A stretch of 64,000 nucleotides of DNA from Tetraselmis striata (lineage: Eukaryota; Chlorophyta; Chlorodendrophyceae; Chlorodendrales; Chlorodendraceae), in NCBI GenBank assembly GCA_006384855.1, contig VCJN01000434.1, positions 98,774-162,773 on the forward strand, written 5' to 3'. A program made the translations under genes and the position numbers. Under the pieces are notes generated by a model. The model saw only the letters and a list, made by a program, of their open reading frames with translations, searched no databases and was not told where the DNA came from. Of this stretch, positions 1 to 30,119 are shown one piece after another. Within the stretch, counting starts at the first letter, position 1, and every line of letters begins with the position of its first letter.

Positions 1-781
1 CTTGCTCCGGCATTGCGCCAAGCAAAAAGTCCACATCTGACCAAAAGCTGACCAAAACGATGAAAAGCAAATTCAACGGATTGGACCATACATCAGGCAT
101 ATGTCTTTATTGCAGATTGAAATTAGAATTAATTCGTTTTGCTTGTCGTCATGGTCCTCCATTCTGTTCATAAGTATTGTTTATTGACATAGCAGACACA
201 TCATGGGAAGACATGGTTTGTAGGGCATTCATCCAAATATACAGAATTTGAATGCAATAGGAGGAGATGGCTGCCAACACAGTCGAGAAAATGAAATTTA
301 TCAGCTGACATATTTACTCGGGCTGAAAGGCCGGGATTGCCTTGGGGCTGTGTCCCACACAGTCACCGGAAAATCCTAGAACATCGTACATCGTCCTCAG
401 CTGTCTTTGCCCTTGGGAAAGGCACGCAGTCTGTTGTAGTATTAGTAGTTTTGCCGTTTCAGCCCGGTAAACACTACTGTACACCTTATTCCCTGCCCGG
501 GTCAAAAGGCCGCAACTCCTGGACGTCGTGCACCCAGTAGTCCCGCATTAGTGCACGCGGTTTGCAGTGGTGTGTGTGTGTTGCCTGCACTCCGAAGCCT
601 GGACTGGCCTGCAACTGGCTTAGGGCCAAGCACAACATCCAAACCTCACGAAAAGTTGACCAAAGCTGACCAAAGTTGAAGCCTGGACTGGCTTGCTCCG
701 GCATTGCGCCAAGCAAAAAGTCCACATCTGACCAAAAGCTGACCAAACCGATGAAAGGCAAATTCAACGGATTGGACCATA
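1..781 (+). repeat. A-type monomers (end of one unit plus one full unit, 91-781)
   Basis: A monomer layout, read on the full unit 91-781: a common left part to about 265 (ending AATAGGAGGAG), an A-specific middle of about 260 bp (from ATGGCTGCCAAC to the CCCGGGTCAAAAGGCC block near 497), and a common right part with GTGCACCCA, CGCGGTTTGCA, a short (GT)5 and two copies of a degenerate 70-90 bp sub-repeat starting GCCTGGACTGGC (about 597 and 682). The unit before the following B carries CCAAACCGATG instead of CCAAAACGATG, so B-type sequence begins about 35 bp left of the anchor. Confidence 0.95.
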
Positions 782-1502
782 CATCAGGCATATGTCTTTA
801 TTGCAGATTGAAATTAGAATTAATTCGTTTTGCGTGCCGTCATGGTCCTCCATTCTGTTCATAAGTATTGTTTATCGACATAGCAGACACATCATGGGAA
901 GACATGCTTTTGCAGAGCATTCATCCAAATATACAGAATTTGAATGCAATAGGAGGAGTAGTATGACGAAACATTGTTCAGAGATTTGCTTGTATCCCCT
1001 TGCTGAGGCACCGCATTAATATCTAATTTGACCCTCGTACAGAAACATATGACTTCAATGGGTTTTCCTTGCAATCAATTGCGCATATGTGATATGCTAT
1101 TTCATACAGCTCATCACCATTTGCAAAAAATGGAATGTACAACTATGCAGCACGTGTGCATGTATATGTAAAGATTGTGTTCATGTTCGCTTAAGAGAAG
1201 AAAGAAATTCCTGCACTGGCTGGAATGGCTATGGCATCGGGCAAGGAAAAAATCCAAAGTTGATCCGCAGCTGATCCGAAGTAGGTATACCAAAGCTGAA
1301 GTCTGGACTGGCTTGCTCCGGCATTGCGTCAAGCAAAAAATCCACATCTGACCGAAAGCTGACCAAATATGTTATTCCCCACCCGGGTAAAAGGCCACAA
1401 CGACTGATGGACGCCGTGCACCCAATTTTCCCGCATTACTGTCCGCGGTTTGCAATGGTGTGTGTGTGGGGGGGGGGGGGGGGAGCGTGCGCGTGTGTGT
1501 GT

Positions 1503-1573
<71 letters not shown>

Positions 1574-1761
1574 GCCTGAACTCCGGAGCCTGGACTGGCT
1601 TGCTATGGCATAGGGCCAAGCAAAACATCCGAATTCGACCCAAAGCTGACCAAAGTTGAAGCCTGGACTGGCTTGCTCCGGCATTGCGCCAAGCAAAAAG
1701 TCCACATCTGACCAAAAGCTGACCAAAACGATGAAAGGCAAATTCAACGGATTGGACCATA
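782..1761 (+). repeat. B-type monomer 1 (980 bp) with poly-G/(GT)n block
   Basis: Shares the left part with A up to AATAGGAGGAG (about 957), then has a B-specific middle of about 400 bp (GTAGTATGACGAAAC to the CACCCGGGTAAAAGGCC block near 1380), then rejoins A at GTGCACCCA. The right part holds poly-G 1468-1483 and (GT)n about 1492-1572. Degenerate GCCTGGACTGGC sub-repeats start near 1211, 1302, 1588 and 1661. Diagnostic bases against A: GCGTGCCGTC for GCTTGTCGTC and TTATCGACATAGC for TTATTGACATAGC. Confidence 0.95.
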
Positions 1762-4535
1762 CATCAGGCATATGTCTTTATTGCAGATTGAAATTAGAAT
1801 TAATTCGTTTTGCTTGTCGTCATGGTCCTCCATTCTGTTCATAAGTATTGTTTATTGACATAGCAGACACATCATGGGAAGACATGGTTTGTAGGGCATT
1901 CATCCAAATATACAGAATTTGAATGCAATAGGAGGAGATGGCTGCCAACACAGTCGAGAAAATGAAATTTATCAGCTGACATATTTACTCGGGCTGAAAG
2001 GCCGGGATTGCCTTGGGGCTGTGTCCCACACAGTCACCGGAAAATCCTAGAACATCGTACATCGTCCTCAGCTGTCTTTGCCCTTGGGAAAGGCACGCAG
2101 TCTGTTGTAGTATTAGTAGTTTTGCCGTTTCAGCCCGGTAAACACTACTGTACACCTTATTCCCTGCCCGGGTCAAAAGGCCGCAACTCCTGGACGTCGT
2201 GCACCCAGTAGTCCCGCATTAGTGCACGCGGTTTGCAGTGGTGTGTGTGTGTTGCCTGCACTCCGAAGCCTGGACTGGCCTGCAACTGGCTTAGGGCCAA
2301 GCACAAAATCCAAACCTCACGAAAAGTTGACCAAAGCTGACCAAAGTTGAAGCCTGGACTGGCTTGCTCCGGCATTGCGCCAAGCAAAAAGTCCACATCT
2401 GACCAAAAGCTGACCAAAACGATGAAAGGCAAATTCAACGGATTGGACCATACATCAGGCATATGTCTTTATTGCAGATTGAAATTAGAATTAATTCGTT
2501 TTGCTTGTCGTCATGGTCCTCCATTCTGTTCATAAGTATTGTTTATTGACATAGCAGACACATCATGGGAAGACATGGTTTGTAGGGCATTCATCCAAAT
2601 ATACAGAATTTGAATGCAATAGGAGGAGATGGCTGCCAACACAGTCGAGAAAATGAAATTTATCAGCTGACATATTTACTCGGGCTGAAAGGCCGGGATT
2701 GCCTTGGGGCTGTGTCCCACACAGTCACCGGAAAATCCTAGAACATCGTACATCGTCCTCAGCTGTGTTTGCCCTTGGGAAAGGCACGCAGTCTGTTGTA
2801 GTATTAGTAGTTTTGCCGTTTCAGACCGGTAAACACTACTGTACACCTTATTCCCTGCCCGGGTCAAAAGGCCGCAACTCCTGGACGTCGTGCACCCAGT
2901 AGTCCCGCATTAGTGCACGCGGTTTGCAGTGGTGTGTGTGTGTTGCTTGCACTCCGAAGCCTGGACTGGCCTGCAACTGGCTTAGGGCCAAGCACAACAT
3001 CCAAACCTCACGAAAAGTTGACCAAAGCTGACCAAAGTTGAAGCCTGGACTGGCTTGCTCCGGCATTGCGCCAAGCAAAAAGTCCACATCTGACCAAAAG
3101 CTGACCAAAACGATGAAAGGCAAATTCAACGGATTGGACCATACATCAGGCATATGTCTTTATTGCAGATTGAAATTAGAATTAATTCGTTTTGCTTGTC
3201 GTCATGGTCCTCCATTCTGTTCATAAGTATTGTTTATTGACATAGCAGGACACATCATGGGAAGACATGGTTGTAGGGCATTCATCCAAATATACAGAAT
3301 TTGAATGCAATAGGAGGAGATGGCTGCCAACACAGTCGAGAAAATGAAATTTATCAGCTGACATATTTACTCGGGCTGAAAGGCCGGGATTGCCTTGGGG
3401 CTGTGTCCCACACAGTCACCGGAAAATCCTAGAACATCGTACATCGTCCTCAGCTGTGTTTGCCCTTGGGAAAGGCACGCAGTCTGTTGTAGTATTAGTA
3501 GTTTTGCCGTTTCAGCCCGGTAAACACTACTGTACACCTTATTCCCTGCCCGGGTCAAAAGGCCGCAACTCCTGGACGTCGTGCACCCAGTAGTCCCGCA
3601 TTAGTGCACGCGGTTTGCAGTGGTGTGTGTGTGTTGCCTGCACTCCGAAGCCTGGACTGGCCTGCAACTGGCTTAGGGCCAAGCACAAAATCCAAACCTC
3701 ACGAAAAGTTGACCAAAGCTGACCAAAGTTTGAAGCCTGGACTGGCTTGCTCCGGCATTGCGCCAAGCAAAAAGTCCACATCTGACCAAAAGCTGACCAA
3801 AACGATGAAAAGCAAATTCAACGGATTGGACCATACATCAGGCATATGTCTTTATTGCAGATTGAAATTAGAATTAATTCGTTTTGCTTGTCGTCATGGT
3901 CCTCCATTCTGTTCATAAGTATTGTTTATTGACATAGGCAGACACATCATGGGAAGACATGGTTTGTAGGGCATTCATCCAAATATACAGAATTTGAATG
4001 CAATAGGAGGAGATGGCTGCCAACACAGTCGAGAAAATGAAATTTATCAGCTGACATATTTACTCGGGCTGAAAGGCCGGGATTGCCTTGGGCTGTGTCC
4101 CACACAGTCCACCGGAAAATCCTTAGAACATCGTACATCGTCCTCAGCTGTCTTTGCCCTTGGGAAAGGCACGCAGTCTGTTGTAGTATTAGTAGTTTTT
4201 GCCGTTTCAGCCCCGGTAAACACTACTGTACACCTTATTCCCTGCCCGGGTCAAAGGCCGCAACTCCTGGACGTCGTGCACCCAGTAGTCCCCGCATTAG
4301 TGCACGCGGTTTGCAGTGGTGTGGTGTGTGTTGCCTGCACTCCGAAGCCTGGACTGGCCTGCAACTGGCTTAGGGCCAAGCACACATCCAAACCTCACCG
4401 AAAAGTTGACCAAAGCTTGACCAAAGTTGAAGCCTGGACTGGCTTGCTCCGGCATTGCGCCAAGCAAAAAGTCCCACATCTGACCAAAAGCTGACCCAAA
4501 CCAGATGAAAGGCAAATTCAACGGATTGGACCATA
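1762..4535 (+). repeat. Run of four A monomers
   Basis: Units start at 1762, 2453, 3144 and 3836, with lengths 691, 691, 692 and 700. The second unit carries the CAGACCGG variant (about 2823) where most A units have CAGCCCGG. The last unit, from about 3930, begins a stretch with many single-base insertions that continues into the next block. Confidence 0.95.
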
Positions 4536-5277
4536 CATCAGGCATATGTCTTTATTGCAGATTGAATATAGAATTAATTCGTTTTGCGTGCCGTCATGGT
4601 CCTCCATTCTGTTCATAAGTATTGTTTATCGACATTAGCAGACACATCATGGGAAGACATGCTTTGCAGAGCATTCATCCAAATATACAGAATTTGAATG
4701 CAATAGGAGGAGTAGTATGACGAAACATTGTTCAGAGATTTGCTTGTATCCCCCTTGCTGAGGCACCGCATTAATATCTAATTTGACCCTCGTACAGAAA
4801 CATATGACTTCAATGGGTTTTCCTTGCAATCAAATTGCGCATATGTGATATGCTATTTCATACAGCTCATCACCATTTGCAAAAAATGGAATGTACAACT
4901 ATGCAGCACGTGTGCATGTATATGTAAAGATTGTGTTCATGTTCGCTTAAGAGAAGAAAGAAATTCCTGCACTGGCTGGAATGGCTATGGCATCGGGCAA
5001 GGAAAAAATCCAAAGTTGATCCGCAGCTGATCCGAAGTAGGTATACCAAAGCTGAAGTCTGGACTGGCTTGCTCCGGCATTGCGTCAAGCAAAAAATCCA
5101 CATCTGACCGAAAGCTGACCAAATATGTTATTCCCCACCCGGGTAAAAGGCCACAACGACTGATGGACGCCGTGCACCCAATTTTCCCGCATTACTGTCC
5201 GCGGTTTGCAATGGTGTGGTGTGGGGGGGGGGGGGGGGGGGAGCGTGCGCGTGTGTGTGTTCGTGTGTGTGTGTGTG

Positions 5278-5317
<40 letters not shown>

Positions 5318-5524
5318 TGTGTGTGTGTTGTGTTGCCTGAACTCCGGAGCCTGGACTGGCTTGCTATGGCATAGGGCCAAGCAAAACATCCGAATTCGGA
5401 CCCAAAGCTGACCAAAGTTGAAGCCTGGACTGGCTTGCTCCGGGCATTGCGCCAAGCAAAAAGTCCACATCTGACCAAAAGCTGACCAAAACGATGAAAG
5501 GCAAATTCAACGGATTGGACCATA
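4536..5524 (+). repeat. B-type monomer 2 (989 bp)
   Basis: Same layout as B1. Poly-G at about 5223-5241, followed by a GT tract interrupted by TT and GG dinucleotides to about 5331. Extra single bases (for example CATTAGC for CATAGC near 4634, and TATCCCCC) make it the longest B unit; these look like consensus errors rather than real divergence. Confidence 0.95.
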
Positions 5525-8500
5525 CATCAGGCATATGTCTTTATTGCAGATTGAAATTAGAATTAATTCGTTTTTGCTTGTCGTCATGGTCCCTCCATTC
5601 TGTTCATAAGTATTGTTTATTGACATAGCAGACACATCATGGGAAGACATGGTTTGTAGGGCCATTCATCCAAATATACAGAATTTGAATGCAATAGGAG
5701 GAGATGGCTGCCAACACAGTCGAGAAAATGAAATTTATCAGCTGACATATTTACTCCGGGCTGAAAGGCCGGGATTGCCTTGGGGCTGTGTCCCACACAG
5801 TCACCGGAAAATCCTAGAACATCGTACATCGTCCTCAGCTGTCTTTGCCCTTGGGAAAGGCACGCAGTCTGTTGTAGTATTAGTAGTTTTGGCCGTTTCA
5901 GCCCGGTAAACACTACTGTACACCTTATTCCCTGCCCGGGTCAAAAGGCCGCAACTCCTGGACGTCGTGCACCCAGTAGTCCCGCATTAGTGCACGCGGT
6001 TTGCAGTGGTGTGTGTGTGTTGCCTGCACTCCGAAGCCTGGACTGGCCTGCAACTGGCTTAGGGCCAAGCACAAAATCCAAACCTCACGAAAAGTTGACC
6101 AAAGCTGACCAAAGTTGAAGCCTGGACTGGCTTGCTCCGGCATTGCGCCAAGCAAAAAGTCCACATCTGACCAAAAGCTGACCAAAACGATGAAAGGCAA
6201 ATTCAACGGATTGGACCATACATCAGGCATATGTCTTTATTGCAGATTGAAATTAGAATTAATTCGTTTTGCTTGTCGTCATGGTCCTCCATTCTGTTCA
6301 TAAGTATTGTTTATTGACCATAGCAGACACATCATGGGAAGACATGGTTTGTAGGGCAATTCATCCAAATATACAGAATTTGAATGCAATAGGAGGAGAT
6401 GGCTGCCAACACAGTCCGAGAAAATGAAATTTATCAGCTGACATATTTTACTCGGGCTGAAAGGCCGGGATTGGCCTTGGGGCTGTGTCCCACACAGTCA
6501 CCTGGAAAATCCTAAGAACATCGTACATCGTCCTCAGCTGTGTTTGCCCTTGGGAAAGGCACGCAGTCTGTTGTAGTATTAGTAGTTTTGCCGTTTCAGA
6601 CCGGTAAACACTACTGTACACCTTATTCCCTGCCCGGGTCAAAAGGCCGCAACTCCTGGACGTCGTGCACCCAGTAGTCCCGCATTAGTGCACGCGGTTT
6701 GCAGTGGTGTGTGTGTGTTGCTTTGCACTCCGAAGCCTGGACTGGCCTGCAACTGGCTTAGGGCCAAGCACAACATCCAAACCTCACGAAAAGTTGACCA
6801 AAGCTGACCAAAGTTGAAGCCTGGACTGGCTTGCTCCGGCATTGCGCCAAGCAAAAAGGTCCACATCTGACCAAAAGCTGACCAATAACGATGAAAGGCA
6901 AATTCAACGGATTGGACCATACATCAGGCATATGTCTTTATTGCAGATTGAAATTAGAATTAATTTCGTTTTGCTTGTCGTCATGGTCCTCCATTCTGTT
7001 CATAAGTTATTGTTTATTGACATAGCAGACACATCATGGGAAGACATGGTTTGTAGGGCATTTCATCCAAATATACAGAATTTGAATGCAATAGGAGGAG
7101 ATGGCTGCCAACACAGTCGAGAAAATGAAATTTATCAGCTGACAATATTTACTCGGGCTGAAAGGCCGGGATTGCCTTGGGGCTGTGTCCCACACAGTCA
7201 CCGGAAAAATCCTAGAACATGTACATCGTCCTCAGCTGTGTTTGCCCTTGGGAAAGGCACGCAGTCTGTTGTAGTATTAGTAGTTTTGCCGTTTCAGCCC
7301 GGTAAAACACTACTGTACACCTTATTCCCTGCCCGGTCAAAAGGCGCAACTCCTGGACGTCGTGCACCCAGTAGTCCCGCATTAGTGCACGCGGTTTGCA
7401 GTGGTGTGTGTGTGTTTGCTTGCACTCCGAAGCCTGGACTGGCCTGCAACTGGCTTAGGGCCAAGCAAAAAATCCAAACCTCACGAAAAAGTTGACCAAA
7501 GCTGACCAAAGTTGAAGCCTGGACTGGCTTGCTCCGGCATTGCGCCAAGCAAAAAGTCCACATCTGACCAAAAGCTGACCAAAACGATGAAAAGCAATTC
7601 AACGGATTGGACCATACATCAGGCATATGTCTTTATTGCAGATTGAAATTAGAATTAATTCGTTTTGCTTGTCGTCATGGTCCCTCCATTCTGTTCATAA
7701 GTATTGTTTATTGACATAGCAGACACATCATGGGAAGACATGGTTTGTAGGGCATTCATCCAAATATACAGAATTTGAATGCAATAGGAGGAGATGGCTG
7801 CCAACACAGTCGAGAAAATGAAATTTATCAGCTGACATATTTACTCGGGCTGAAAGGCCGGGATTGCCTTGGGGCTGTGTCCCCACACAGTTACCGGAAA
7901 ATCCTAGAACATCGTACATCGTCCCTCAGCTGTGTTTGCCTTGGGAAAGGCACGCAGTCTGTTGTAGTATTAGTAGTTTTGCCGTTTCAGCCCGGTAAAC
8001 ACTACTGTACACCTTATTCCTGCCCGGGTCAAAAGGCCGCAACTCCTGGACGTCGTGCACCCAGTAGTCCCGCATTAGTGCACGCGGTTTGCCAGTGGTG
8101 TGTGTGTGTTGCCTGCACTCCGAAGCCTGGACTGGCCTGCAACTGGCTTAGGGCCAAGCACAAAATCCAAACCTCACGAAAAGTTGACCAAAGCTGACCA
8201 AAGTTGAAGCCTGGACTGGCTTGCTCCGGCATTGCGCCAAGCAAAAAGTCCACATCTGACCAAAAGCTGACCAAAACGATGAAAAGCAATTCAACGGATT
8301 GGACCATACATCAGGCATATGTCTTTATTGCAGATTGAAATTAGAATTAATTCGTTTTGCTTGTCGTCATGGTCCTCCATTCTGTTCATAAGTATTGTTT
8401 ATTGACATAGCAGACACATCATGGGAAGACATGGTTTGTAGGGCATTCATCCAAATATACAGAATTTGAATGCAATAGGAGGAGATGGCTGCCAACACAG

Positions 8501-9004
8501 TCGAGAAAATGAAATTTATCAGCTGACATATTTACTCGGGCTGAAAGGCCGGGATTGCCTTGGGGCTGTGTCCCACACAGTCACCGGAAAATCCTAGAAC
8601 ATCGTACATCGTCCTCAGCTGTGTTTGCCCTTGGGAAAGGCACGCAGTCTGTTGTAGTATTAGTAGTTTTGCCGTTTCAGCCCGGTAAACACTACTGTAC
8701 ACCTTATTCCCTGCCCGGGTCAAAAGGCCGCAACTCCTGGACGTCGTGCACCCAGTAGTCCCGCATTAGTGCACGCGGTTTGCAGTGGTGTGTGTGTGTG
8801 TTGCCTGCACTCCGAAGCCTGGACTGGCCCTGCAACTGGCTTAGGGCCAAGCACAAAATCCAAACCTCACGAAAAGTTGACCAAAGCTGACCAAAGTTGA
8901 AGCCTGGACTGGCTTGCTCCGGCATTGCGCCAAGCAAAAAGTCCACATCTGACCAAAAAGCTGACCAAAACCGATGAAAGGCAAATTCAACGGATTGGAC
9001 CATA
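5525..9004 (+). repeat. Run of five A monomers, indel-rich
   Basis: Units start at 5525, 6221, 6922, 7617 and 8309 (696, 701, 695, 692, 696 bp). The second unit again carries CAGACCGG (about 6598) and the fourth carries CAGTTACCGG (about 7888), the same variants seen in the 11629-15085 run. Single-base insertions are frequent to about 8.1 kb and then become rare. Confidence 0.95.
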
Positions 9005-9715
9005 CATCAGGCATATGTCTTTATTGCAGATTGAAATTAGAATTAATTCGTTTTGCGTGCCGTCATGGTCCTCCATTCTGTTCATAAGTATTGTTTATCG
9101 ACATAGCAGACACATCATGGGAAGACATGCTTTGCAGAGCATTCATCCAAATATACAGAATTTGAATGCAATAGGAGGAGTAGTATGACGAAACATTGTT
9201 CAGAGATTTGCTTGTATCCCCTTGCTGAGGCACCGCATTAATATCTAATTTGACCCTCGTACAGAAACATATGACTTCAATGGGTTTTCCTTGCAATCAA
9301 TTGCGCATATGTGATATGCTATTTCATACAGCTCATCACCATTTGCAAAAAAATGGAATGTACAACTATGCAGCACGTGTGCATGTATATGTAAAGATTG
9401 TGTTCATGTTCGCTTAAGAGAAGAAAGAAATTCCTGCACTGGCTGGAATGGCTATGGCATCGGGCAAGGAAAAAATCCAAAGTTGATCCGCAGCTGATCC
9501 GAAGTAGGTATACCAAAGCTGAAGTCTGGACTGGCTTGCTCCGGCATTGCGTCAAGCAAAAAATCCACATCTGACCGAAAGCTGACCAAATATGTTATTC
9601 CCCACCCGGGTAAAAGGCCACAACGACTGATGGACGCCGTGCACCCAATTTTCCCGCATTACTGTCCGCGGTTTGCAATGGTGTGTGTGTGGGGGGGGAG
9701 GGGGGGGGAGCGTGC

Positions 9716-9766
<51 letters not shown>

Positions 9767-9954
9767 GCCTGAACTCCGGAGCCTGGACTGGCTTGCTATG
9801 GCATAGGGCCAAGCAAAACATCCGAATTCGACCCAAAGCTGACCAAAGTTGAAGCCTGGACTGGCTTGCTCCGGCATTGCGCCAAGCAAAAAGTCCACAT
9901 CTGACCAAAAGCTGACCAAAACGATGAAAAGCAAATTCAACGGATTGGACCATA
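9005..9954 (+). repeat. B-type monomer 3 (950 bp)
   Basis: B layout with a short block: two G runs separated by one A (about 9691-9708), then a GT tract to about 9764. The TTCG interruption that follows the first GT repeats in most B copies is absent. Confidence 0.95.
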
Positions 9955-10651
9955 CATCAGGCATATGTCTTTATTGCAGATTGAAATTAGAATTAATTCG
10001 TTTTGCTTGTCGTCATGGTCCTCCATTCTGTTCATAAGTATTGTTTATTGACATAGCAGACACATCATGGGAAGACATGGTTTGTAGGGCATTCATCCAA
10101 ATATACAGAATTTGAATGCAATAGGAGGAGATGGCTGCCAACACAGTCGAGAAAATGAAATTTATCAGCTGACATATTTACTCGGGCTGAAAGGCCGGGA
10201 TTGCCTTGGGGCTGTGTCCCACACAGTCACCGGAAAATCCTAGAACATCGTACATCGTCCTCAGCTGTGTTTGCCCTTGGGAAAGGCACGCAGTCTGTTG
10301 TAGTATTAGTAGTTTTGCCGTTTCAGCCCGGTAAACACTACTGTACACCTTATTCCCTGCCCGGGTCAAAAGGCCGCAACTCCTGGACGTCGTGCACCCA
10401 GTAGTCCCGCATTAGTGCACGCGGTTTGCAGTGGTGTGTGTGTGTGTGTTGCCTGCACTCCGAAGCCTGGACTGGCCTGCAACTGGCTTAGGGCCAAGCA
10501 CAACATCCAAACCTCACGAAAAGTTGACCAAAGCTGACCAAAGTTGAAGCCTGGACTGGCTTGCTCCGGCATTGCGCCAAGCAAAAAGTCCACATCTGAC
10601 CAAAAGCTGACCAAAACCGATGAAAGGCAAATTCAACGGATTGGACCCATA
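9955..10651 (+). repeat. Single A monomer between two B units
   Basis: A layout, 697 bp. It has a slightly longer GT run (about 10435-10449) than neighbouring A units, a feature shared with the single A unit at 24416-25112, which also lies between two B units. Confidence 0.95.
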
Positions 10652-11371: not shown

Positions 11372-11440
<69 letters not shown>

Positions 11441-11628
11441 GCCTGAACTCCGGAGCCTGGACTGGCTTGCTATGGCATAGGGCCAAGCAAAACATCCGAA
11501 TTCGACCCAAAGCTGACCAAAGTTGAAGCCTGGACTGGCTTGCTCCGGCATTGCGCCAAGCAAAAAGTCCACATCTGACCAAAAGCTGACCAAAACGATG
11601 AAAGGCAAATTCAACGGATTGGACCATA
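10652..11628 (+). repeat. B-type monomer 4 (977 bp)
   Basis: B layout. Poly-G at about 11337-11352, then GT to about 11440. It has GACATGGTTTGTAGGGC (A-like) instead of GACATGCTTTGCAGAGC near 10770, as does B9 at 25113. This marks these two B copies as one lineage or as products of local gene conversion. Confidence 0.95.
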
Positions 11629-15807: not shown

Positions 15808-15880
<73 letters not shown>

Positions 15881-17479: not shown

Positions 17480-17542
<63 letters not shown>

Positions 17543-17730: not shown

Positions 17731-19806
17731 CATCAGGCATATGTCTTTATTGCAGATTGAAATTAGAATTAATTCGTTTTTGCTTGTCGTCATGGTCCTC
17801 CATTCTGTTCATAAGTATTGTTTATTGACATAGCAGACACATCATGGGAAGACATGGTTTGTAGGGCATTCATCCAAATATACAGAATTTGAATGCAATA
17901 GGAGGAGATGGCTTGCCAACACAGTCGAGAAAATGAAATTTATCAGCTGACATATTTACTCGGGCTGAAAGGCCGGGATTGCCTTGGGGCTGTGTCCCAC
18001 ACAGTCACCGGAAAATCTAGAACATCGTACATCGTCCTCAGCTGTCTTTGCCCTTGGGAAAGGCACGCAGTCTGTTGTAGTATTAGTAGTTTTGCCGTTT
18101 CAGCCCGGTAAACACTACTGTACACCTTATTCCCTGCCCGGGTCAAAAGGCCGCAACTCCTGGACGTCGTGCACCCAGTAGTCCCGCATTAGTGCACGCG
18201 GTTTGCAGTGGTGTGTGTGTGTTGCCTGCACTCCGAAGCCTGGACTGGCCTGCAACTGGCTTAGGGCCAAGCACAAAATCCAAACCTCACGAAAAGTTGA
18301 CCAAAGCTGACCAAAGTTGAAGCCTGGACTGGCTTGCTCCGGCATTGCGCCAAGCAAAAAGTCCACATCTGACCAAAAGCTGACCAAAACGATGAAAGGC
18401 AAATTCAACGGATTGGACCATACATCAGGCATATGTCTTTATTGCAGATTGAAATTAGAATTAATTCGTTTTGCTTGTCGTCATGGTCCTCCATTCTGTT
18501 CATAAGTATTGTTTATTGACATAGCAGACACATCATGGGAAGACATGGTTTGTAGGGCATTCATCCAAATATACAGAATTTGAATGCAATAGGAGGAGAT
18601 GGCTGCCAACACAGTCGAGAAAATGAAATTTATCAGCTGACATATTTACTCGGGCTGAAAGGCCGGGATTGCCTTGGGCTGTGTCCCACACAGTCACCGG
18701 AAAATCCTAGAACATCGTACATCGTCCTCAGCTGTCTTTGCCCTTGGGAAAGGCACGCAGTCTGTTGTAGTATTAGTAGTTTTGCCGTTTCAGCCCGGTA
18801 AACACTACTGTACACCTTATTCCCTGCCCGGGTCAAAAGGCCGCAACTCCTGGACGTCGTGCACCCAGTAGTCCCGCATTAGTGCACGCGGTTTGCAGTG
18901 GTGTGTGTGTGTTGCCTGCACTCCGAAGCCTGGACTGGCCTGCAACTGGCTTAGGGCCAAGCACAACAATCCAAACCTCACGAAAAGTTGACCAAAGCTG
19001 ACCAAAGTTGAAGCCTGGACTGGCTTGCTCCGGCATTGCGCCAAGCAAAAAGTCCACATCTGACCAAAAGCTGACCAAAACGATGAAAGGCAAATTCAAC
19101 GGATTGGACCATACATCAGGCATATGTCTTTATTGCAGATTGAAATTAGAATTAATTCGTTTTGCTTGTCGTCATGGTCCTCCATTCTGTTCATAAGTAT
19201 TGTTTATTGACATAGCAGACACATCATGGGAAGACATGGTTTGTAGGGCATTCATCCAAATATACAGAATTTGAATGCAATAGGAGGAGATGGCTGCCAA
19301 CACAGTCGAGAAAATGAAAATTTATCAGCTGACATATTTACTCGGGCTGAAAGGCCGGGATTGCCTTGGGGCTGTGTCCCACACAGTCACCGGAAAATCC
19401 TAGAACATCGTACATCGTCCTCAGCTGTGTTTGCCCTTGGGAAAGGCACGCAGTCTGTTGTAGTATTAGTAGTTTTGCCGTTTCAGCCCGGTAAACACTA
19501 CTGTACACCTTATTCCCTGCCCGGGTCAAAAGGCCGCAACTCCTGGACGTCGTGCACCCAGTAGTCCCGCATTAGTGCACGCGGTTTGCAGTGGTGTGTG
19601 TGTGTTGCCTTGCACTCCGAAGCCTGGACTGGCCTGCAACTGGCTTAGGGCCAAGCAAAAATCCAAACCTCACGAAAAGTTGACCAAAGCTGACCAAAGT
19701 TGAAGCCTGGACTGGCTTGCTCCGGCATTGCGCCAAGCAAAAAGTCCACATCTGACCAAAAAGCTGACCAAAACGATGAAAGGCAAATTCAACGGATTGG
19801 ACCATA
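17731..19806 (+). repeat. Run of three A monomers
   Basis: Units start at 17731, 18423 and 19114 (692, 691, 693 bp). Scattered single-base indels begin here. The last unit ends with A-type CCAAAACGATG although a B follows, unlike most A/B junctions. Confidence 0.95.
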
Positions 19807-20529
19807 CATCAGGCATATGTCTTTATTGCAGATTGAAATTAGAATTAATTCGTTTTGCTTGTCGTCATGGTCCTCCATTCTGTTCATAAGTATTGTTTAT
19901 CGACATAGCAGACACATCATGGAAGACATGCTTTGCAGAGCATTCATCCAAATATACAGAATTTGAATGCAATAGGAGGAGTAGTATGACGAAACATTGT
20001 TCAAGTTGTTGTATCCCTTGCTGAGGCACCGCATTAATATCTAATTTGACCCTCGTACAGAAACATATGACTTCAATGGGTTTTCCTTGCAATCAATTGC
20101 GCATATGTGATATGCTATTTTTCATTACAGCTCATCACCCATTTGCAAAAAATGGAATGTTACAACTATGCAGCACGTGTGCATGTATATGTAAAGATTG
20201 TGTTCATGTTCGCTTAAGAGAAGAAAGAAATTCCTGCACTGGCTGGAATGGCTATGGCATCGGGCAAGGAAAAAATCCAAAGTTGATCCGCAGCTGATTC
20301 CGAAGTAGGTATACCAAAGCTGAAGTCTGGAACTGGCTTGCTCCGGCATTGCGTCAAGCAAAAAATCCACATCTGACCGAAAGCTGACCAAATATTGTTA
20401 TTTCCCCACCCGGGGTAAAAGGCCACACACGACTGATGGACGCCGTGCCACCCAATTTTCCCGCATTACTGTCCGCGGTTTGCAATGGTGTGTGTGTGGG
20501 GGGGGGGGGAAGCGTGCGCGTGTGTGTGT

Positions 20530-20569
<40 letters not shown>

Positions 20570-20768
20570 TGTTGCCTGAACCTCGGAGCCTGGACTGGCT
20601 TGCTATGGCATAGGGCCAAGCAACAACATCCGAATTTCGACCCAAAGCTGACCAAAGTTGAAGCCTGGGACTGGCTTGCTCCGGCATTTGCGCCAAGCAA
20701 AAAGTCCACATCCTGACCAAAGCTTGACCACAAACGATGAAAAGGCAAATTCAACGGATTGGACCATA
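19807..20768 (+). repeat. B-type monomer 7 (962 bp), A/B mosaic at its left end
   Basis: The left part has the A allele GCTTGTCGTC followed about 40 bp later by the B allele TTATCGACATAGC, so the switch lies between them (about 19866-19900). The B middle is present but short of bases near 20003 (TTCAAGTTGTTG). Poly-G about 20498-20510 and GT to about 20572 are the shortest block in a clear B. Confidence 0.93.
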
Positions 20769-23478
20769 CATCAGGCATATGTCTTTATTGCAGATTGAAA
20801 TTAGAATTAATTCGTTTTGCTTGTTCGTCATGGTCCTCCATTCTGTTCATAAGTATTGTTTATTGACATAGCAGACACATCATGGGAAGACATGGTTTGT
20901 AGGCATTCATCCAAATATACAGAATTTGAATGCAATAGGAGGAGATGGCTGCCAACACAGTCGAGAAAATGAAATTTATCATGACATATTTACTCGGGCT
21001 GAAAGGCCGGGATTGCCTTGGGGCTGTGTCCCACACAGTCACCGGAAAATCCTAGAACATCGTACATCGTCCTCAGCTGTCTTTGCCCTTGGGAAAGGCA
21101 CGCAGTCTGTTGTAGTATTAGTAGTTTTGCCGTTTCAGCCCGGTAAACACTACTGTACACCTTATTCCCTGCCCGGTCAAAAGGCCGCAACTCCTGGACG
21201 TCGTGCACCCAGTAGTCCCGCATTAGTGCACGCGGTTTGCAGTGGTGTGTGTGTGTTGCCTGCACTCCGAAGCCTGGACTGGCTGCAACTGGCTTAGGGC
21301 CAAGCACAATCCAAACCTCACGAAAAGTTGACCAAAGCTGACCAAAGTTGAAGCCTGGACTGGCTTGCTCCGGCATTGCGCCAAGCAAAAAGTCCACATC
21401 TGACCAAAAGCGACCAAAACGATGAAAGGCAAATTCAACGGATTGGACCATACATCAGGCATATGTCTTTATTGCAGATTGAAATTAGAATTAATTCGTT
21501 TTGCTTGTCGTCATGGTCCTCATTCTGTTCATAAGTATTGTTTATTGACATAGCAGACACATCATGGGAAGACATGGTTTGTAGGGCATTCATCCAAATA
21601 TACAGAATTTGAATGCAATAGGAGGAGATGGCTGCCAACACAGTCGAGAAAATGAAATTTATCAGCTGACATATTACTCGGGCTGAAAGGCCGGGATTGC
21701 CTTGGGGCTGTGTCCCACACAGTCACCGGAAAATCTAGAACATCGTACATCGTCCTCAGCTGTGTTTGCCCTTGGGAAAGGCACGCAGTCTGTTGTAGTA
21801 TTAGTAGTTTTGCCGTTTCAGCCCGGTAAACACTACTGTACACCTTATTCCCTGCCCGGGTCAAAAGGCCGCAACTCCTGGACGTCGTGCACCCAGTAGT
21901 CCCGCATTAGTGCGGTTTGCAGTGGTGTGTGTGTGTTGCTGCACTCCGAAGCCTGGACTGGCCTGCAACTGGCTTAGGGCCAAGCAAAAATCCAAACCTC
22001 ACGAAAAGTTGACCAAAGCTGACCAAAGTTGAAGCCTGGACTGGCTTGCTCCGGCATTGCGCCAAGCAAAAATCCACATCTGACCAAAGCTGACCAAAAC
22101 GATGAAAGGCAAATTCAACGGATTGGACATACATCAGGCATATGTCTTTATTGCAGATTGAAATTAGAATTAATTCGTTTTGCTGTCGTCATGGTCCTCC
22201 ATTCTGTTCATAGTATTGTTTATTGACATAGCAGACACATCATGGGAAGACATGGTTTGTAGGCATTCATCCAAATATACAGAATTTGAATGCAATAGGA
22301 GGAGATGGCTGCCAACACAGTCGAGAAAATGAAATTTATCAGCTGACATATTTACTCGGGCTGAAAGGCCGGGATTGCCTTGGGGCTGTGTCCCACACAG
22401 TCACCGGAAAATCCTAGAACATCGTACATCGTCCTCAGCTGTGTTTGCCCTTGGGAAAGGCACGCAGTCTGTTGTAGTATTAGTAGTTTTGCCGTTTCAG
22501 CCCGGTAAACACTACTGTACACCTTATTCCCTGCCCGGGTCAAAAGGCCGCAACTCCTGGACGTCGTGCACCCAGTAGTCCGCATTAGTGCACGCGGTTT
22601 GCAGTGGTGTGTGTGTGTTGCTGCACTCCGAAGCCTGACTGGCCTGCAACTGGCTTAGGGCCAAGCACAAAATCCAAACTCACGAAAAGTTGACCAAAGC
22701 TGACCAAAGTTGAAGCCTGACTGGCTTGCTCCGGCATTGCGCCAAGCAAAAAGAGCCTGACCAAAACGATGAAAAGCAAATTCAACGGATTGGACCATAC
22801 ATCAGGCATATGTCTTTATTGCAGATTGAAATTAAATTAATTCGTTTTGCTTGTCGTCATGGTCCTCCATGTTCATAAGTATTGTTTATTGACATAGCAG
22901 ACACATCATGGGAAGACATGGTTTGTAGGCATTCATCCAAATATCAGAATTTGAATGCAATAGGAGGAGATGGCTGCCAACACAGTCGAGAAAATGAAAT
23001 TTATCAGCTGACATATTTACTCGGGCTGAAAGCCGGGATTGCCTTGGGGCTGTGTCCCACACAGTCACCGGAAAATCCTAGAACATCGTACATCGTCCTC
23101 AGCTGTGTTTTGCCCTTGGGAAAGGCACGCAGTCTGTTGTAGTATTAGTAGTTTGCCGTTTCAGCCGGTAAACACTACTGTACCCTTATTCCCTGCCCGG
23201 GTCAAAAGGCCGCAACTCCTGGACGTCGTGCACCCAGTAGTCCCGCATTAGTGCACGCGGTTTGCAGTGGTGTGTGTGTGTGTGCCTGCACTCCGAAGCC
23301 TGGACTGGCTGCAACTGGCTTAGGCCAAGCACAAAATCCAAACCTCACGAAAATTGACCAAAGCTGACCAAAGTTGAAGCCTGGACTGGCTTGCTCCGGC
23401 ATTGCGCCAAGCAAAAAGTCCACATCTGACCAAAAGCTGACCAAAACGATGAAAGGCAAATTCACGGATTGGACCATA
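20769..23478 (+). repeat. Run of four A monomers, deletion-rich
   Basis: Units start at 20769, 21453, 22132 and 22800 with lengths 684, 679, 668 and 679, all below the 691 bp norm because of many one- to few-base deletions (for example a gap in the AAAAGTCCACATCTG segment near 22752). The pattern fits poor consensus quality more than biology. Confidence 0.93.
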
Positions 23479-24177
23479 CATCAGCATATGTCTTTTGATT
23501 GATTAGAAATTAATTCGTTTTGCGTGCCCGTCATGGTCCTCCATTCTGTCATAAGTATTGTTTATTGACATAGCAGACACATCATGGAAGACATGCTTTG
23601 CAGAGCATTCATCCAAATATACAGAATTTGAATGCAATAGGAGGAGTAGTATGAAAACATTGTTCAGAGATTTGCTTGTATCCCCTTGCTGAGGCACCGC
23701 ATTAATATCTAATTTGACCCTCGTACAGAAACATATGACTTCAATGGGTTTTCCTTGCAATCAATTGCGCATATGTGATATGCTATTTCATACAGCTCAT
23801 CCCATTTGCAAAAAAGGAATGTCAAACTATGCAGCACGTGTGCATGTATATGTAAAGATTGTGTTCATGTTCGCTTAAGAGAAGAAAGAAATTCCTGCAC
23901 TGGCTGGAATGGCTATGGCATCGGGCAAGGAAAAAATCCAAAGTTGATCCGCAGCTGATCCGAAGTAGGTATACCAAAGCTGAAGTCTGGACTGGCTTGC
24001 TCCGGCATTGCGTCAAGCAAAAAATCCACATCTGACCGAAAGCTGACCAAATATGTTATTCCCCACCCGGGTAAAAGGCCACAACGACTGATGGACGCCG
24101 TGCACCCAATTTTCCCGCATTACTGTCCGCGGTTTGCAATGGTGTGTGTGTGGGGGGGGGGGGGGGGAGCGTGCGTG

Positions 24178-24228
<51 letters not shown>

Positions 24229-24415
24229 GCCTGAACTCCGGAGCCTGGACTGGCTTGCTATGGCATAGGGCCAAGCAAAACATCCGAATTCGACCCAAAG
24301 CTGACCAAAGTTGAAGCCTGGACTGGCTTGCTCCGGCATTGCGCCAAGCAAAAAGTCCACATCTGACCAAAAGCTGACCAAAACGATGAAAGCAAATTCA
24401 ACGGATTGGACCATA
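23479..24415 (+). repeat. B-type monomer 8 (937 bp), A/B mosaic
   Basis: Carries the B allele GCGTGCC at the left but the A allele TTATTGACATAGC next, the reverse combination to B7. Poly-G about 24151-24167, then GT to about 24228. Shortest B unit, with several single-base losses in the first 350 bp. Confidence 0.93.
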
Positions 24416-25112
24416 CATCAGGCATATGTCTTTATTGCAGATTGAAATTAGAATTAATTCGTTTTGCTTGTCGTCATGGTCCTCCATTCTGTTCATAAGT
24501 ATTGTTTATTGACATAGCAGACACATCATGGGAAGACATGGTTTGTCAGGGCATTCATCCAAATATACAGAATTTGAATGCAATAGGAGGAGATGGCTGC
24601 CAACACAGTCGAGAAAATGAATTTATCAGCTGACATATTTACTCGGGCTGAAAGGCCGGGATTGCCTTGGGGCTGTGTCCCACACAGTCACCGGAAAATC
24701 CTAGAACATCGTACATTTCGTCCTCAGCTGTGTTTGCCCTTGGGAAAGGCACGCAGTCTGTTGTAGTATTAGTAGTTTTGCCGTTTCAGCCCGGTAAACA
24801 CTACTGTACACCTTATTCCCTGCCCGGGTCAAAAGGCCGCAACTCCTGGACGTCGTGCACCCAGTAGTCCCGCATTAGTGCACGCGGTTTGCAGTGGTGT
24901 GTGTGTGTGTGTTGCCTGCACTCCGAAGCCTGGACTGGCCTGCAACTGGCTTAGGGCCAAGCACAACATCCAAACCTCACGAAAAGTTGACCAAAGCTGA
25001 CCAAAGTTGAAGCCTGGACTGGCTTGCTCCGGCATTGCGCCAAGCAAAAAGTCCACATCTGACCAAAAGCTGACCAAACCGATGAAAGGCAAATTCAACG
25101 GATTGGACCATA
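24416..25112 (+). repeat. Single A monomer between two B units
   Basis: A layout, 697 bp, with the longest GT run of the A class (about 24897-24912) and a small TTCG insertion near 24717. Ends with CCAAACCGATG before the B. Confidence 0.95.
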
Positions 25113-25834
25113 CATCAGGCATATGTCTTTATTGCAGATTGAAATTAGAATTAATTCGTTTTGCGTGCCGTCATGGTCCTCCATTCTGTTCATAAGTATT
25201 GTTTATCGACATAGCAGACACATCATGGGAAGACATGGTTTGTAGGGCATTCATCCAAATATACAGAATTTGAATGCAATAGGAGGAGTAGTATGACGAA
25301 ACATTGTTCAGAGATTTGCTTGTATCCCCTTGCTGAGGCACCGCATTAATATCTAATTTGACCCTCGTACAGAAACATATGACTTCAATGGGTTTTCCTT
25401 GCAATCAATTGCGCATATGTGATATGCTATTTCATACAGCTCATCACCATTTTGCAAAAAATGGAATGTACAACTATGCAGCACGTGTGCATGTATATGT
25501 AAAGATTGTGTTCATGTTCGCTTAAGAGAAGAAAGAAATTCCTGCACTGGCTGGAATGGCTATGGCATCGGGCAAGGAAAAAATCCAAAGTTGATCCGCA
25601 GCTGATCCGAAGTAGGTATACCAAAGCTGAAGTCTGGACTGGCTTGCTCCGGCATTGCGTCAAGCAAAAAATCCACATCTGACCGAAAGCTGACCAAATA
25701 TGTTATTCCCCACCCGGGTAAAAAGGCCACAACGACTGATGGACGCCGTGCACCCAATTTTCCCGCATTACTGTCCGCGGTTTGCAATGGTGTGTGTGTG
25801 GGGGGGGGGGGGGGAGGCGTGCGCGTGTGTGTGT

Positions 25835-25897
<63 letters not shown>

Positions 25898-26086
25898 GCC
25901 TGAACTCCGGAGCCTGGACTGGCTTGCTATGGCATAGGGCCAAGCAAAACATCCGAATTTCGACCCAAAGCTGACCAAAGTTGAAGCCTGGACTGGCTTG
26001 CTCCGGCATTGCGCCAAGCAAAAAGTCCACATCTGACCAAAAGCTGACCAAAACGATGAAAGGCAAATTCAACGGATTGGACCATA
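25113..26086 (+). repeat. B-type monomer 9 (974 bp)
   Basis: B layout with the A-like GACATGGTTTGTAGGGC segment near 25231, shared only with B4. Poly-G about 25800-25814, then GT to about 25896. Confidence 0.95.
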
Positions 26087-28158
26087 CATCAGGCATATGT
26101 CTTTATTGCAGATTGAAATTAGAATTAATTCGTTTTGCTTGTCGTCATGGTCCTCCATTCTGTTTCATAAGTATTGTTATTGACATAGCAGACACATCAT
26201 GGGAAGACATGGTTTGTAGGGCATTCATCCAAATATACAGAATTTGAATGCAATAGGAGGAGATGGCTGCCAACACAGTCGAGAAAATGAAATTTATCAG
26301 CTGACATATTTACTCGGGCTGAAAGGCCGGGATTGCCTTGGGGCTGTGTCCCACACAGTCACCGGAAAATCCTAGAACATCGTACATCGTCCTCAGCTGT
26401 CTTTGCCCTTGGGAAAGGCACGCAGTCTGTTGTAGTATTAGTAGTTTTGCCGTTTCAGCCCGGTAAACACTACTGTACACCTTATTCCCTGCCCGGGTCA
26501 AAAGGCCGCAACTCCTGGACGTCGTGCACCCAGTAGTCCCGCATTAGTGCACGCGGTTTGCAGTGGTGTGTGTGTGTTGCTTGCACTCCGAAGCCTGGAC
26601 TGGCCTGCAACTGGCTTAGGGCCAAGCACAAAATCCAAACCTCACGAAAAGTTGACCAAAGCTGACCAAAGTTGAAGCCTGGACTGGCTTGCTCCGGCAT
26701 TGCGCCAAGCAAAAAGTCCACATCTGACCAAAAGCTGACCAAAACGATGAAAGGCAAATTCAACGGATTGGACCATACATCAGGCATATGTCTTTATTGC
26801 AGATTGAAATTAGAATTAATTCGTTTTGCTTGTCGTCATGGTCCTCCATTCTGTTCATAAGTATTGTTTATTGACATAGCAGACACATCATGGGAAGACA
26901 TGGTTTGTAGGGCATTCATCCAAATATACAGAATTTGAATGCAATAGGAGGAGATGGCTGCCAACACAGTCGAGAAAATGAAATTTATCAGCTGACATAT
27001 TTACTCGGGCTGAAAGGCCGGGATTGCCTTGGGGCTGTGTCCCACACAGTTACCGGAAAATCCTAGAACATCGTACATCGTCCTCAGCTGTGTTTGCCCT
27101 TGGGAAAGGCACGCAGTCTGTTGTAGTATTAGTAGTTTTGCCGTTTCAGCCCGGTAAACACTACTGTACACCTTATTCCCTGCCCGGGTCAAAAGGCCGC
27201 AACTCCTGGACGTCGTGCACCCAGTAGTCCGCATTAGTGCACGCGGTTTGCAGTGGTGTGTGTGTGTTGCCTGCACTCCGAAGCCTGGACTGGCCTGCAA
27301 CTGGCTTAGGGCCAAGCACAAAATCCAAACCTCACGAAAAGTTGACCAAAGCTGACCAAAGTTGAAGCCTGGACTGGCTTGCTCCGGCATTGCGCCAAGC
27401 AAAAAGTCCACATCTGACCAAAAGCTGACCAAAACGATGAAAAGCAAATTCAACGGATTGGACCATACATCAGGCATATGTCTTTATTGCAGATTGAAAT
27501 TAGAATTAATTCGTTTTGCTTGTCGTCATGGTCCTCCATTCTGTTCATAAGTATTGTTTATTGACATAGCAGACACATCATGGGAAGACATGGTTTGTAG
27601 GGCATTCATCCAAATATACAGAATTTGAATGCAATAGGAGGAGATGGCTGCCAACACAGGCGAGAAAATGAAATTTATCAGCTGACATATTTACTCGGGC
27701 TGAAAGGCCGGGATTGCCTTGGGGCTGTGTCCCACACAGTCACCGGAAAATCCTAGAACATCGTACATCGTCCTCAGCTGTGTTTGCCCTTGGGAAAGGC
27801 ACGCAGTCTGTTGTAGTATTAGTAGTTTTGCCGTTTCAGCCCGGTAAACACTACTGTACACCTTATTCCCTACCCGGGTCAAAAGGCCGCAACTCCTGGA
27901 CGTCGTGCACCCAGTAGTCCCGCATTAGTGCACGCGGTTTGCAGTGGTGTGTGTGTGTTGCCTGCACTCCGAAGCCTGGACTGGCCTGCAACTGGCTTAG
28001 GGCCAAGCACAAAATCCAAACCTCACGAAAAGTTGACCAAAGCTGACCAAAGTTGAAGCCTGGACTGGCTTGCTCCGGCATTGCGCCAAGCAAAAAGTCC
28101 ACATCTGACCAAAAGCTGACCAAACCGATGAAAGGCAAATTCAACGGATTGGACCATA
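26087..28158 (+). repeat. Run of three A monomers
   Basis: Units start at 26087, 26778 and 27468 (691, 690, 691 bp). The second has CAGTTACCGG (about 27048). The third has a private TACCCGGG for TGCCCGGG near 27871. Confidence 0.95.
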
Positions 28159-28869
28159 CATCAGGCATATGTCTTTATTGCAGATTGAAATTAGAATTAA
28201 TTCGTTTTGCGTGCCGTCATGGTCCTCCATTCTGTTCATAAGTATTGTTTATCGACATAGCAGACACATCATGGGAAGACATGCTTTGCAGAGCATTCAT
28301 CCAAATATACAGAATTTGAATGCAATAGGAGGAGTAGTATGACGAAACATTGTTCAGTTGTATCCCCTTGCTGAGGCACCGCATTAATATCTAATTTGAC
28401 CCTCGTACAGAAACATATGACTTCAATGGGTTTTCCTTGCAATCAATTGCGCATATGTGATATGCTATTTCATACAGCTCATCACCATTTGCAAAAAATG
28501 GAATGTACAACTATGCAGCACGTGTGCATGTATATGTAAAGATTGTGTTCATGTTCGCTTAAGAGAAGAAAGAAATTCCTGCACTGGCTGGAATGGCTAT
28601 GGCATCGGGCAAGGAAAAAATCCAAAGTTGATCCGCAGCTGATCCGAAGTAGGTATACCAAAGCTGAAGTCTGGACTGGCTTGCTCCGGCATTGCGTCAA
28701 GCAAAAAAATCCACATCTGACCGAAAGCTGACCAAATATGTTATTCCCCACCCGGGTAAAAGGCCACAACGACTGATGGACGCCGTGCACCCAATTTTCC
28801 CGCATTACTGTCCGCGGTTTGCAATGGTGTGTGTGTGGGGGGGGGGGGGGAGCGTGCGCGTGTGTGTGT

Positions 28870-28916
<47 letters not shown>

Positions 28917-29115
28917 GCCTGAACTCCGGAGCCTGGACTGGCTTGCTATGGCATAGGGCCAAGCAAAACATCCGAATTCGACCCAAAGCTGACCAAAGTT
29001 GAAGCCTGGACTGGCTTGCTCTGGCATTGCGCCAAGCAAAAAAACCAAAGTTGACCGAAAGCTGACCAAATACAACAAAAGGCAAATGAGAAAAAAATCG
29101 ACGGATTGGAACATA
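28159..29115 (+). repeat. B-type monomer 10 (957 bp)
   Basis: B layout with a 9-bp loss in the TTCAGAGATTTGCTTG segment near 28357. Poly-G about 28837-28850, then GT to about 28916. Its right end (after 29030) starts to drift from the consensus, marking the approach to the array edge. Confidence 0.94.
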
Positions 29116-29846
29116 CACCAGGCATATGTATTTCTGGCAGATTGTAAGTAAACTCAATCCGTTATGCGTACCGTCACGGTCCTCCATTCTGTTCATAATT
29201 ATTTGTTATTGACATAACAGAGATTATGGGAAGACATGCTTTGCAGAGCATTCATCCAAATATTATACAGAATTTGAATGCAATAAACATCGGAGTACTA
29301 TGACAAGTCGTTTTTCACAGATTGTAGATATGCTTGTATCCCCTTGCTGTGGCACTGCTTTCATATCTAATTTGACCCTCGTACTGAAACATATGACTTC
29401 AATGGGTTTTCCTTGCAATCAATTGCGCATATGTGATATGCTATTTCATACAGCTCATCACCATTTGCAAAAAATATGGAATGTACAACTATGCAGCACG
29501 TGTGCATGTATATGTAAAGATTGTGTTCATGTTCGCTTCAGAGAAGAAAGAAATTCTTGCACTGGCTGGAATGGCTATGGCATCGGGCAAGGAAAAAATC
29601 CAAAGTTGATCCGCAGCTGATCCGAAGTAGGTTTATCAAAGCTGAAACCTGGACTGGCTTGCTCCGGCATTGCGCAAAGCAAAAAATCAACATCGGACCG
29701 AAAGCTGACCAAATATTCCCCACCCGGGTAAAAGGCCGCAGCAACTGATCGCCGTGCACCCATCTGTCCGCATTTTTGCCCGTGGTTTGCAGTCAGTGGT
29801 GTGTTTGTGTGTGTGTGCGTGCGTGCGCGTGCGCGTGTGCGTGTGC

Positions 29847-29923
<77 letters not shown>

Positions 29924-30119
29924 CGCGTGCGTGCGCGTGCGCGCGTGTGTGTGTGTATGCGTGTGCGTGTGTGTTACATGCACTCCGAAGCCTGGACTGG
30001 CTTGCTATGGCATTGCGCCAAGTAAAAATCCGAAATTGATCCAAAGCTGACCAAAGCTGACCAAATTCTAAGCTTGGACGGGCTTGCTTCAAGAAAAAAA
30101 TCCTAAGTTGACCGGAAGC
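29116..30119 (+). repeat. Diverged terminal B-like unit at the array edge
   Basis: Recognisably B in order, but with many substitutions and small indels (for example AATAAACATCGGAGTACTATG for the usual GGAGGAGTAGTATG segment). The poly-G block is missing. A mixed GT/GC tract of about 175 bp (29798-29973) replaces it. Degenerate sub-repeats with GCTGACCAAA continue to about 30119, after which no satellite sequence is seen. Divergence of the outermost copy is expected when exchange no longer homogenises it. Confidence 0.9.

Follow-up and report, generated by a model that had tools for sequence, protein, structure and literature searches.

The birth of higher-order satellite arrays is mostly inferred from old, large arrays. 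The stretch of DNA analysed here (the window: 64,000 nucleotides, C341:98774-162773, from a genome assembly of 224.1 Mb in 2903 contigs) opens with two interleaved tandem monomers, A and B, which the original prediction had taken for a two-monomer satellite with an irregular higher-order order. The locus raises the question of what this array belongs to and how its order arose. The two monomers, the irregular order and the higher-order organisation all stand, but the satellite label does not, because the array appears from its sequence context to be the repetitive interior of a Helitron2-type transposon. Given 63 matches in the genome to the light-harvesting family PF00504, the host can be taken as very probably a photosynthetic eukaryote; one of 14 control genomes, that of a cyanobacterium, also matched.

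Anchor spacing and A- and B-specific probes were used to establish the order of the units. Within the window this order is A B A4 B A5 B A B A5 B A B A3 B A4 B A B A3 B plus an edge unit, exactly as originally predicted, which amounts to 28 A units, 10 B units and a divergent terminal unit, B'. The monomer lengths of 691 and 980 bp were likewise borne out: the commonest A-to-A step is 691 bp and the B unit measures ~980 bp, its length varying with a GT tract. The array and representative units are located in the window as follows.

1..30119, plus strand: internal A/B tandem array of the element, its first 9.3 kb lying upstream of the window (anchor spacing, unit probes and SNPs)
951..1929, plus strand: one B unit in natural phase, 979 bp (sequence read, probes and Rep relic alignment)
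1930..2620, plus strand: one A unit in natural phase, from AGGAGGAG to AATGCAAT, 691 bp (sequence read)
29330..30119, bounds approximate, plus strand: B', the divergent terminal unit, listed earlier as the edge unit

Read from its start 9.3 kb before window position 1, the whole array is A5B A2B A5B A4B A5B AB A5B AB A3B A4B AB A3B B' (39 A, 12 B and B'). The order is nonrandom, because no run of A exceeds five units, whereas shuffling 39 A and 12 B units 20,000 times gave a mean maximum of 10.6 (P = 0.0033 for a maximum of five or fewer). B' is probably older than the other B units, since it differs from all 12 of them by ~12% (74-85 differences over 608-635 sites).

The higher-order unit had been proposed to be B-A-B-An; SNP haplotypes give A5B with shortened derivatives instead. 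Eleven informative SNPs were typed in 38 A units, the first A being omitted as its upstream part is non-A-like. Of the 20 A units in the four five-A blocks, 19 could be used; pairs with matching positions differed on average by 1.74 SNPs, compared with 3.64 for pairs at different positions (permutation test, p = 0.0002, the lowest value that 5000 permutations can return). When all blocks were included and positions were numbered from the right-hand B, the values were 2.01 and 2.97, respectively (p = 0.0002). Because position-specific SNPs recur across the five-A blocks, the higher-order unit is A5B, about 4.4 kb, accompanied by shortened blocks. The shorter blocks are mostly subsets of the A5B position types; A17, A38, A41 and A42 carry no minor SNP state and thus have no assignable type. 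Two of the three single-A blocks are a5-like (A26, and A45, whose call rests on one SNP, another being unreadable), and the third, A34, is of the a4 type. A28 and A47 are identical by haplotype, and such an extra shared haplotype is found only in blocks 6/7 and 11/12. The recurrent B-A-B pairs, earlier regarded as a repeat, therefore reflect block duplication only in part (blocks 6/7 and 11/12); the pattern arose at least twice by shortening. Neighbouring units were no more alike in their SNPs than distant ones across the array (Mantel r 0.009, p 0.41), so unit-by-unit local exchange is not favoured, and local homogenisation of neighbouring units was dropped as an explanation. Unequal exchange is a plausible array process.

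The order of the array rests on an assembly that contains indel-rich stretches. Small indels cluster in A18-A26 and A40-A45 and are sparser in A4, A9, A32, A38 and some other units, and they appear to resemble unpolished long-read sequence. The presence of such units would fit a short array that was inflated or misordered during long-read assembly, as would the at least three contigs (C451, C1204 and C1608) that break inside A units, indicating that arrays of this kind are hard to assemble; false duplication of entire blocks is possible. However, neither the position-specific haplotypes nor five SNPs absent from all other A units read (see below) are expected from falsely duplicated identical units, and we consider an assembly artefact quite unlikely. 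The assembly holds one long A/B array; other long arrays may be missing from it, because at least three contigs, those just named, begin or end inside A units.

The sequence on both sides of the array identifies the structure that contains it. Position 1 of the window falls within an element of 42.6 kb (C341:87174-129814), whose left end lies 11.6 kb upstream of the window and whose right end is at window position 31041. The corresponding features are listed below.

1..31041, plus strand: 3' part (31.0 of 42.6 kb) of the putative non-autonomous Helitron2-type element C341:87174-129814; homology to other copies ends at 31041
30130..31041, plus strand: 3'-terminal region common to other copies, at least six of them at 97-99% identity over ~912 bp among the matches listed
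31002..31011, plus strand: 3' asymmetric inverted repeat TCAGCGTTCT, the reverse complement of AGAACGCTGA at element bases 3-12
31016..31033, plus strand: 3' hairpin TGGGGTC-ACAT-GACCCCA, followed by the end GGATCATT (DNA fold)

Further copies of the 3'-terminal region are more diverged or partial. With one A unit as the query, the genome returned at least 227 matches, mostly in short arrays, which fall on at least 38 contigs among the matches listed, C341 not being one of them. C341 and 15 other loci have an identical junction at the start of the A array, and up to ~2.3 kb before this junction is common, in pieces. Similarity stops at a left end, TTAGAACGCTGATATCC, and at the right end GGATCATT, each of which is present in 12 of the 16 loci. 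A pattern search of the genome yielded 76 left-end matches (at most two mismatches) and 43 right-end matches (at most three mismatches), and the backward controls yielded none. Pairing by pattern, with part of the copy interiors read, gave 20 end pairs on one strand within 60 kb; 19 of these span 1.6-13.3 kb and the C341 copy spans 42.6 kb.

These boundaries bear on the view that the array is a free-standing satellite, possibly centromeric or subtelomeric, that merely shares monomers with dispersed copies. Thirty-nine tandem A units in a true higher-order register would suit a satellite, but both sides of the array are bounded by element ends and by terminal sequence matching the short copies, and a leucine-rich-repeat ORF begins ~2 kb past the element's right end. 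Also against it, an A 30-mer (at most three mismatches) has 36 of its 89 genome matches on C341 and no more than five on any other contig; a B 33-mer has 42 matches, 12 on C341 (B' included) and at most two elsewhere, both patterns missing a few indel-bearing units. A free-standing satellite, centromeric or otherwise, is highly improbable, because both array edges carry the ends of the short copies; none of the results supports a centromeric function.

The flanks of 24 copies were compared, comprising 22 full left and 21 right flanks, with two contig pairs each sharing one flank. There is no consistent target duplication: among 19 copies with both flanks, 10 have no shared word of 4 bp or longer and nine have a word of 4-6 bp at variable places (raw counts, without a chance control). 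T is found at position -3 in 21 of the 22 left flanks, and none of the 22 ends in TTTT. Flank searches of the genome found no empty insertion site; the sequence to the right of the element occurs once in the genome, and that to its left comes from a very abundant repeat. This repeat (C341:85171-87170) gave at least 43 matches, mostly 95-98% identical, with 40 of 2726 first-look candidates scored; it carries a 464-aa ORF without a Pfam match, and on C479 it occurs as tandem copies ~2.1 kb apart. As for the contig pairs, C760 and C1961 have an identical left flank of a Helitron copy and different right flanks, and C931 and C1467 have a nearly identical right flank; these pairs are possibly haplotigs or assembly branch points.

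A profile search of the genome for Helitron_like_N gave 10 places, seven of them over the cut-off. One, at C427:177172-188586, is an 11,415-bp element whose left 20-mer and right 40-mer are identical to those of the C341 element. It contains a 1425-aa open frame (a 1416-aa protein) encoding an intact Rep-PIF1 protein, with Pfam matches to Helitron_like_N (1.1e-18) and PIF1 (6.3e-16) and a match to UvrD_C_2 (0.0034) below its cut-off. Present in this protein are FEVQGRGSLHAH, YLLKYQMK and GKPGTGKT, which we take to be the HUH, two-tyrosine and Walker A motifs, respectively. The protein resembles the Helraiser structure 7lcc (E 8e-20). No endonuclease domain was found in the 1416-aa protein, and three downstream frames gave no Pfam match. 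The left part of the C341 element, the A unit and the A-to-B region all find piecewise matches in bases 1-2497 of the C427 element. The two elements thus have the left 2.5 kb in common but on the right only the last 66 bp, for which reason we infer, and do not take as given, that C427 is the partner of C341. A copy on C2619, of which a small part of bases 1-10647 was read, was not treated as a complete partner; more than 10 kb separates its A part (1317-1721) from its Rep sequence (12148 onward). Additional Helitron_like_N matches at C187:2769-3395, C2378:36334-36960 and C1791:69635-70261, with open frames of 2434, 2324 and 501 aa, perhaps represent another Helitron family in the same genome.

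The C427 element also accounts for the content of both monomers. Alignment of another A unit, the last ahead of the first B, to C427 element positions 1440-2500 indicates that the A unit consists of the Rep gene leader and a relic of Rep codons 1 to ~24. The B unit contains a further Rep relic that extends to about codon 109, a degenerate copy of the leader, the GT tract and again a relic of Rep codons 1 to ~24. One such relic was identified by tblastn with the first 200 aa of the C427 Rep (E 2e-15 and 1e-13):

880..1207, plus strand: decayed 5' Rep/helicase coding sequence, codons 1 to ~109, with stops and a frame change, over one A/B junction

The motif AGGAGGA occurs 51 times in the C341 element and is found at every unit junction read, a subset of the 51 having been checked; it is absent from both corresponding places in C427. 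This suggests that the first duplication of A may have joined two short similar sequences.

The element is predicted to be a non-autonomous Helitron2-type rolling-circle transposon. Helitron2 elements are described as having asymmetric inverted repeats, the 5' copy 0-2 bp from the end and the 3' copy ~20-30 bp from the end, before a hairpin (Bao and Jurka, PMC3627910). In the C341 element, the 10-mer AGAACGCTGA occupies bases 3-12, 2 bp from the left end, and 30 bases separate TCAGCGTTCT from the 3' end, with the hairpin lying within them. The hairpin has a 7-bp stem and a fold of -6.7 kcal/mol (z -3.26, equalled by none of 200 shuffles). The element lacks plain terminal inverted repeats and a consistent target duplication, in line with Helitron2, in which a target duplication is usually missing. 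A Rep and PIF1-type helicase without endonuclease is provided by C427, to which C341 is tied by the ends and the left 2.5 kb. A 5' hairpin that includes the 5' inverted repeat, which also belongs to the Helitron2 description, is not significant in the first 43 nt (z -0.16, 88 of 200 shuffles equal) or the first 72 nt (z 0.31, 116 of 200), and we therefore label the element Helitron2-type and not a confirmed Helitron2. Hairpins at both ends are described for only some Helitron2-like elements (PMC5148889).

The domain order of Rep and helicase is common to canonical Helitrons (Helitron1), Helentrons and Helitron2, and together with the missing 5' hairpin it leaves room for either of the first two classes. 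In addition, the S of RGS.H.H, the one residue by which the C427 protein was set beside the other groups, is present and is given as a diagnostic of the Helentron side (PMC4067079). However, the element ends in TTAGAACG and GGATCATT and not in the 5'-TC and CTRR-3' of canonical Helitrons, and the endonuclease fused to the Rep-helicase of Helentrons is found neither in the intact 1416-aa protein nor in the three downstream frames tested. A canonical Helitron or Helentron is thus very unlikely. A DIRS element, a Crypton and a TIR transposon were set aside on account of the lack of a TIR, the asymmetric subterminal repeats, the 3' hairpin and the same-ended Rep-helicase element.

The short copies of this Helitron2-type family bear on where the array expanded. 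At the 15 other loci, the probe order is one to five A followed by none to two B, and never A after B; in C427 the B probe hits Rep directly, and some of the loci are truncated or run off the end of a contig. C341 was compared with these loci at the seven SNPs that lie in the A core, the other four lying in the unit's upstream part. Five minor states, found in 6, 2, 18, 6 and 11 of the 39 C341 units, occur in none of the 30 A units from the 15 other loci. The minor state C of the sixth SNP occurs in 12 C341 units and once elsewhere, and at the seventh SNP 34 of the 37 C341 units that could be read have C, compared with A in all 29 readable units from other loci. As five of the tested SNPs are private to the C341 locus, the array was probably built at this insertion site. 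The closest copy among those read is on C2620 (AABB, 6.5 kb), with 27 substitutions over 2289 sites on the left and 6 over 898 on the right. Array growth is recent: the mean difference among A cores inside C341 is 0.88% (median 0.51%), and C341 cores lie 0.83% from C2620 cores. The C341 cores are thus as far from those of C2620 as from one another, so growth may have begun before or after the two copies split.

The array could alternatively have been made in transposition, by rolling-circle replication of a circle without a 3' terminator and subsequent block insertion. Such a model for arrays is described in a review (PMC12628747, citing Xiong et al. 2016), a Fusarium Helitron2-like subgroup is reported to occur with joined ends (PMC5148889), and the lack of a distance effect among units fits a burst better than stepwise exchange between neighbours. 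The signature given for it, however, often consists of numerous 5' ends with a single 3' end (PMC12628747), whereas the C341 element has one of each and repeats internally only; moreover, the blocks vary in length (1-5 A), and SNPs distinguish the A positions inside them. Array formation during transposition is unlikely on this evidence, although less so than an error of assembly.

We therefore favour, with good confidence, a Helitron2-type insertion whose Rep-derived interior, already a few A units followed by B and B', grew in place. A non-autonomous transposon of this type would have inserted at the C341 site, presumably mobilised by a C427-type protein, carrying a few tandem A units and then B and B', whose common source was the Rep/helicase gene, namely its leader and the 5' end of its coding sequence. 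After the split from the 6.5-kb C2620 sister, the interior would have grown at the site to 39 A and 12 B. In this course A5B would have arisen, and unequal exchange, or slippage during replication, acting between nearly identical units would have duplicated whole A5B blocks; some blocks may then have lost A units. The ends, the copies, the Rep gene in a same-ended element, the A5B register and the absence of most of its tested SNPs from the other loci read are observed, whereas mobilisation by a C427-type protein, expansion at the site and the recombination mechanism are inferred.

A bolder version is that the insertion has been caught in the act of making a higher-order satellite. The transposase leader and first codons would have become a monomer through a AGGAGGAG microhomology junction, the monomer would have given A5B, and A5B an evolving array, all of it between intact ends of the Helitron2 type. 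Nicking and rolling-circle replication by the element itself may have driven these steps, and the element would still be mobile as a 42-kb unit. This proposal is tentative and in our judgement doubtful. If true, the mobile 42-kb unit would spread ready-made higher-order arrays.

The remainder of the window contains several other features. The leucine-rich-repeat ORF at 33011-34822 encodes 603 aa (LRR_1 3.6e-20), with a hydrophobic stretch near the C-terminus recognised by eye. A 266-aa ORF on the minus strand at 48586-49386 has an F-box-like match (6.4e-5) below the curated cut-off, and a 167-bp unit is present at 54825-55165 as two tandem copies with 90% matches. A solo left end of the Helitron2-type family, 210 bp and 84-86% identical, lies at 58977-59186; beyond it, window 31047-64000 has no match to the C341 or C427 element at E 1e-8. 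A scan of the window gave no Rfam match at the gathering score and no tRNA.

Among known systems, the Helitron2 group of Chlamydomonas reinhardtii (Helitron-1_CRe and its non-autonomous relatives; PMC3627910) is similar, in a comparison made by description only, in the asymmetric placement of the inverted repeats, the 3' hairpin, the 5' T and a Rep-helicase without endonuclease, as well as in having a photosynthetic host and non-autonomous copies with common ends. The family described here differs from it in having no significant 5' hairpin and in bearing large internal tandem arrays; the Chlamydomonas target is given as TTTT (PMC3627910), with which none of the 22 left flanks ends here. Central tandem arrays are already known from non-autonomous Helentrons of animals (PMC7492417, PMC4067079). 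The Cg_HINE elements of the Pacific oyster (PMC7492417) have conserved ends, subterminal inverted repeats, a 3' palindrome, a microsatellite and a central satellite-like array, like the C341 element. Their monomers are mostly 140-180 bp and their longest described array has 29.3 monomers, compared with monomers of 691 and 980 bp in C341, which, unlike Cg_HINE as described there, interleaves two monomers in a higher-order unit, both from the Rep gene end of its own family.

DINE-TR1 of Drosophila is said to be a Helentron derivative with internal tandem repeats. The DINE-1/HINE Helentron derivatives (PMC4067079) are, like C341, non-autonomous rolling-circle elements whose interior contains tandem repeats, but, compared by description only, they lie on the endonuclease-encoding Helentron side. 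Plants have Helitron-derived tandem arrays too, formed of shortened Helitrons (Xiong et al. 2016, as summarised in PMC12628747); many of these have several 5' ends and one 3' end, whereas C341 has single ends and a repeated interior. The excerpts consulted from the literature on Helitrons, satellite DNA and green algae contained no description of a higher-order repeat within a Helitron2 element, and such a repeat within one Helitron2-type insertion appears to be what is new here. One genome holds a likely ancestor state (AABB in the 6.5-kb sister, ~1% diverged), the source gene (C427) and the expanded array, so that the steps of array formation become directly readable. The locus extends satellite formation by Helitrons, described in animals and, as tandem truncated elements, in plants, to Helitron2-type elements of a photosynthetic eukaryote.
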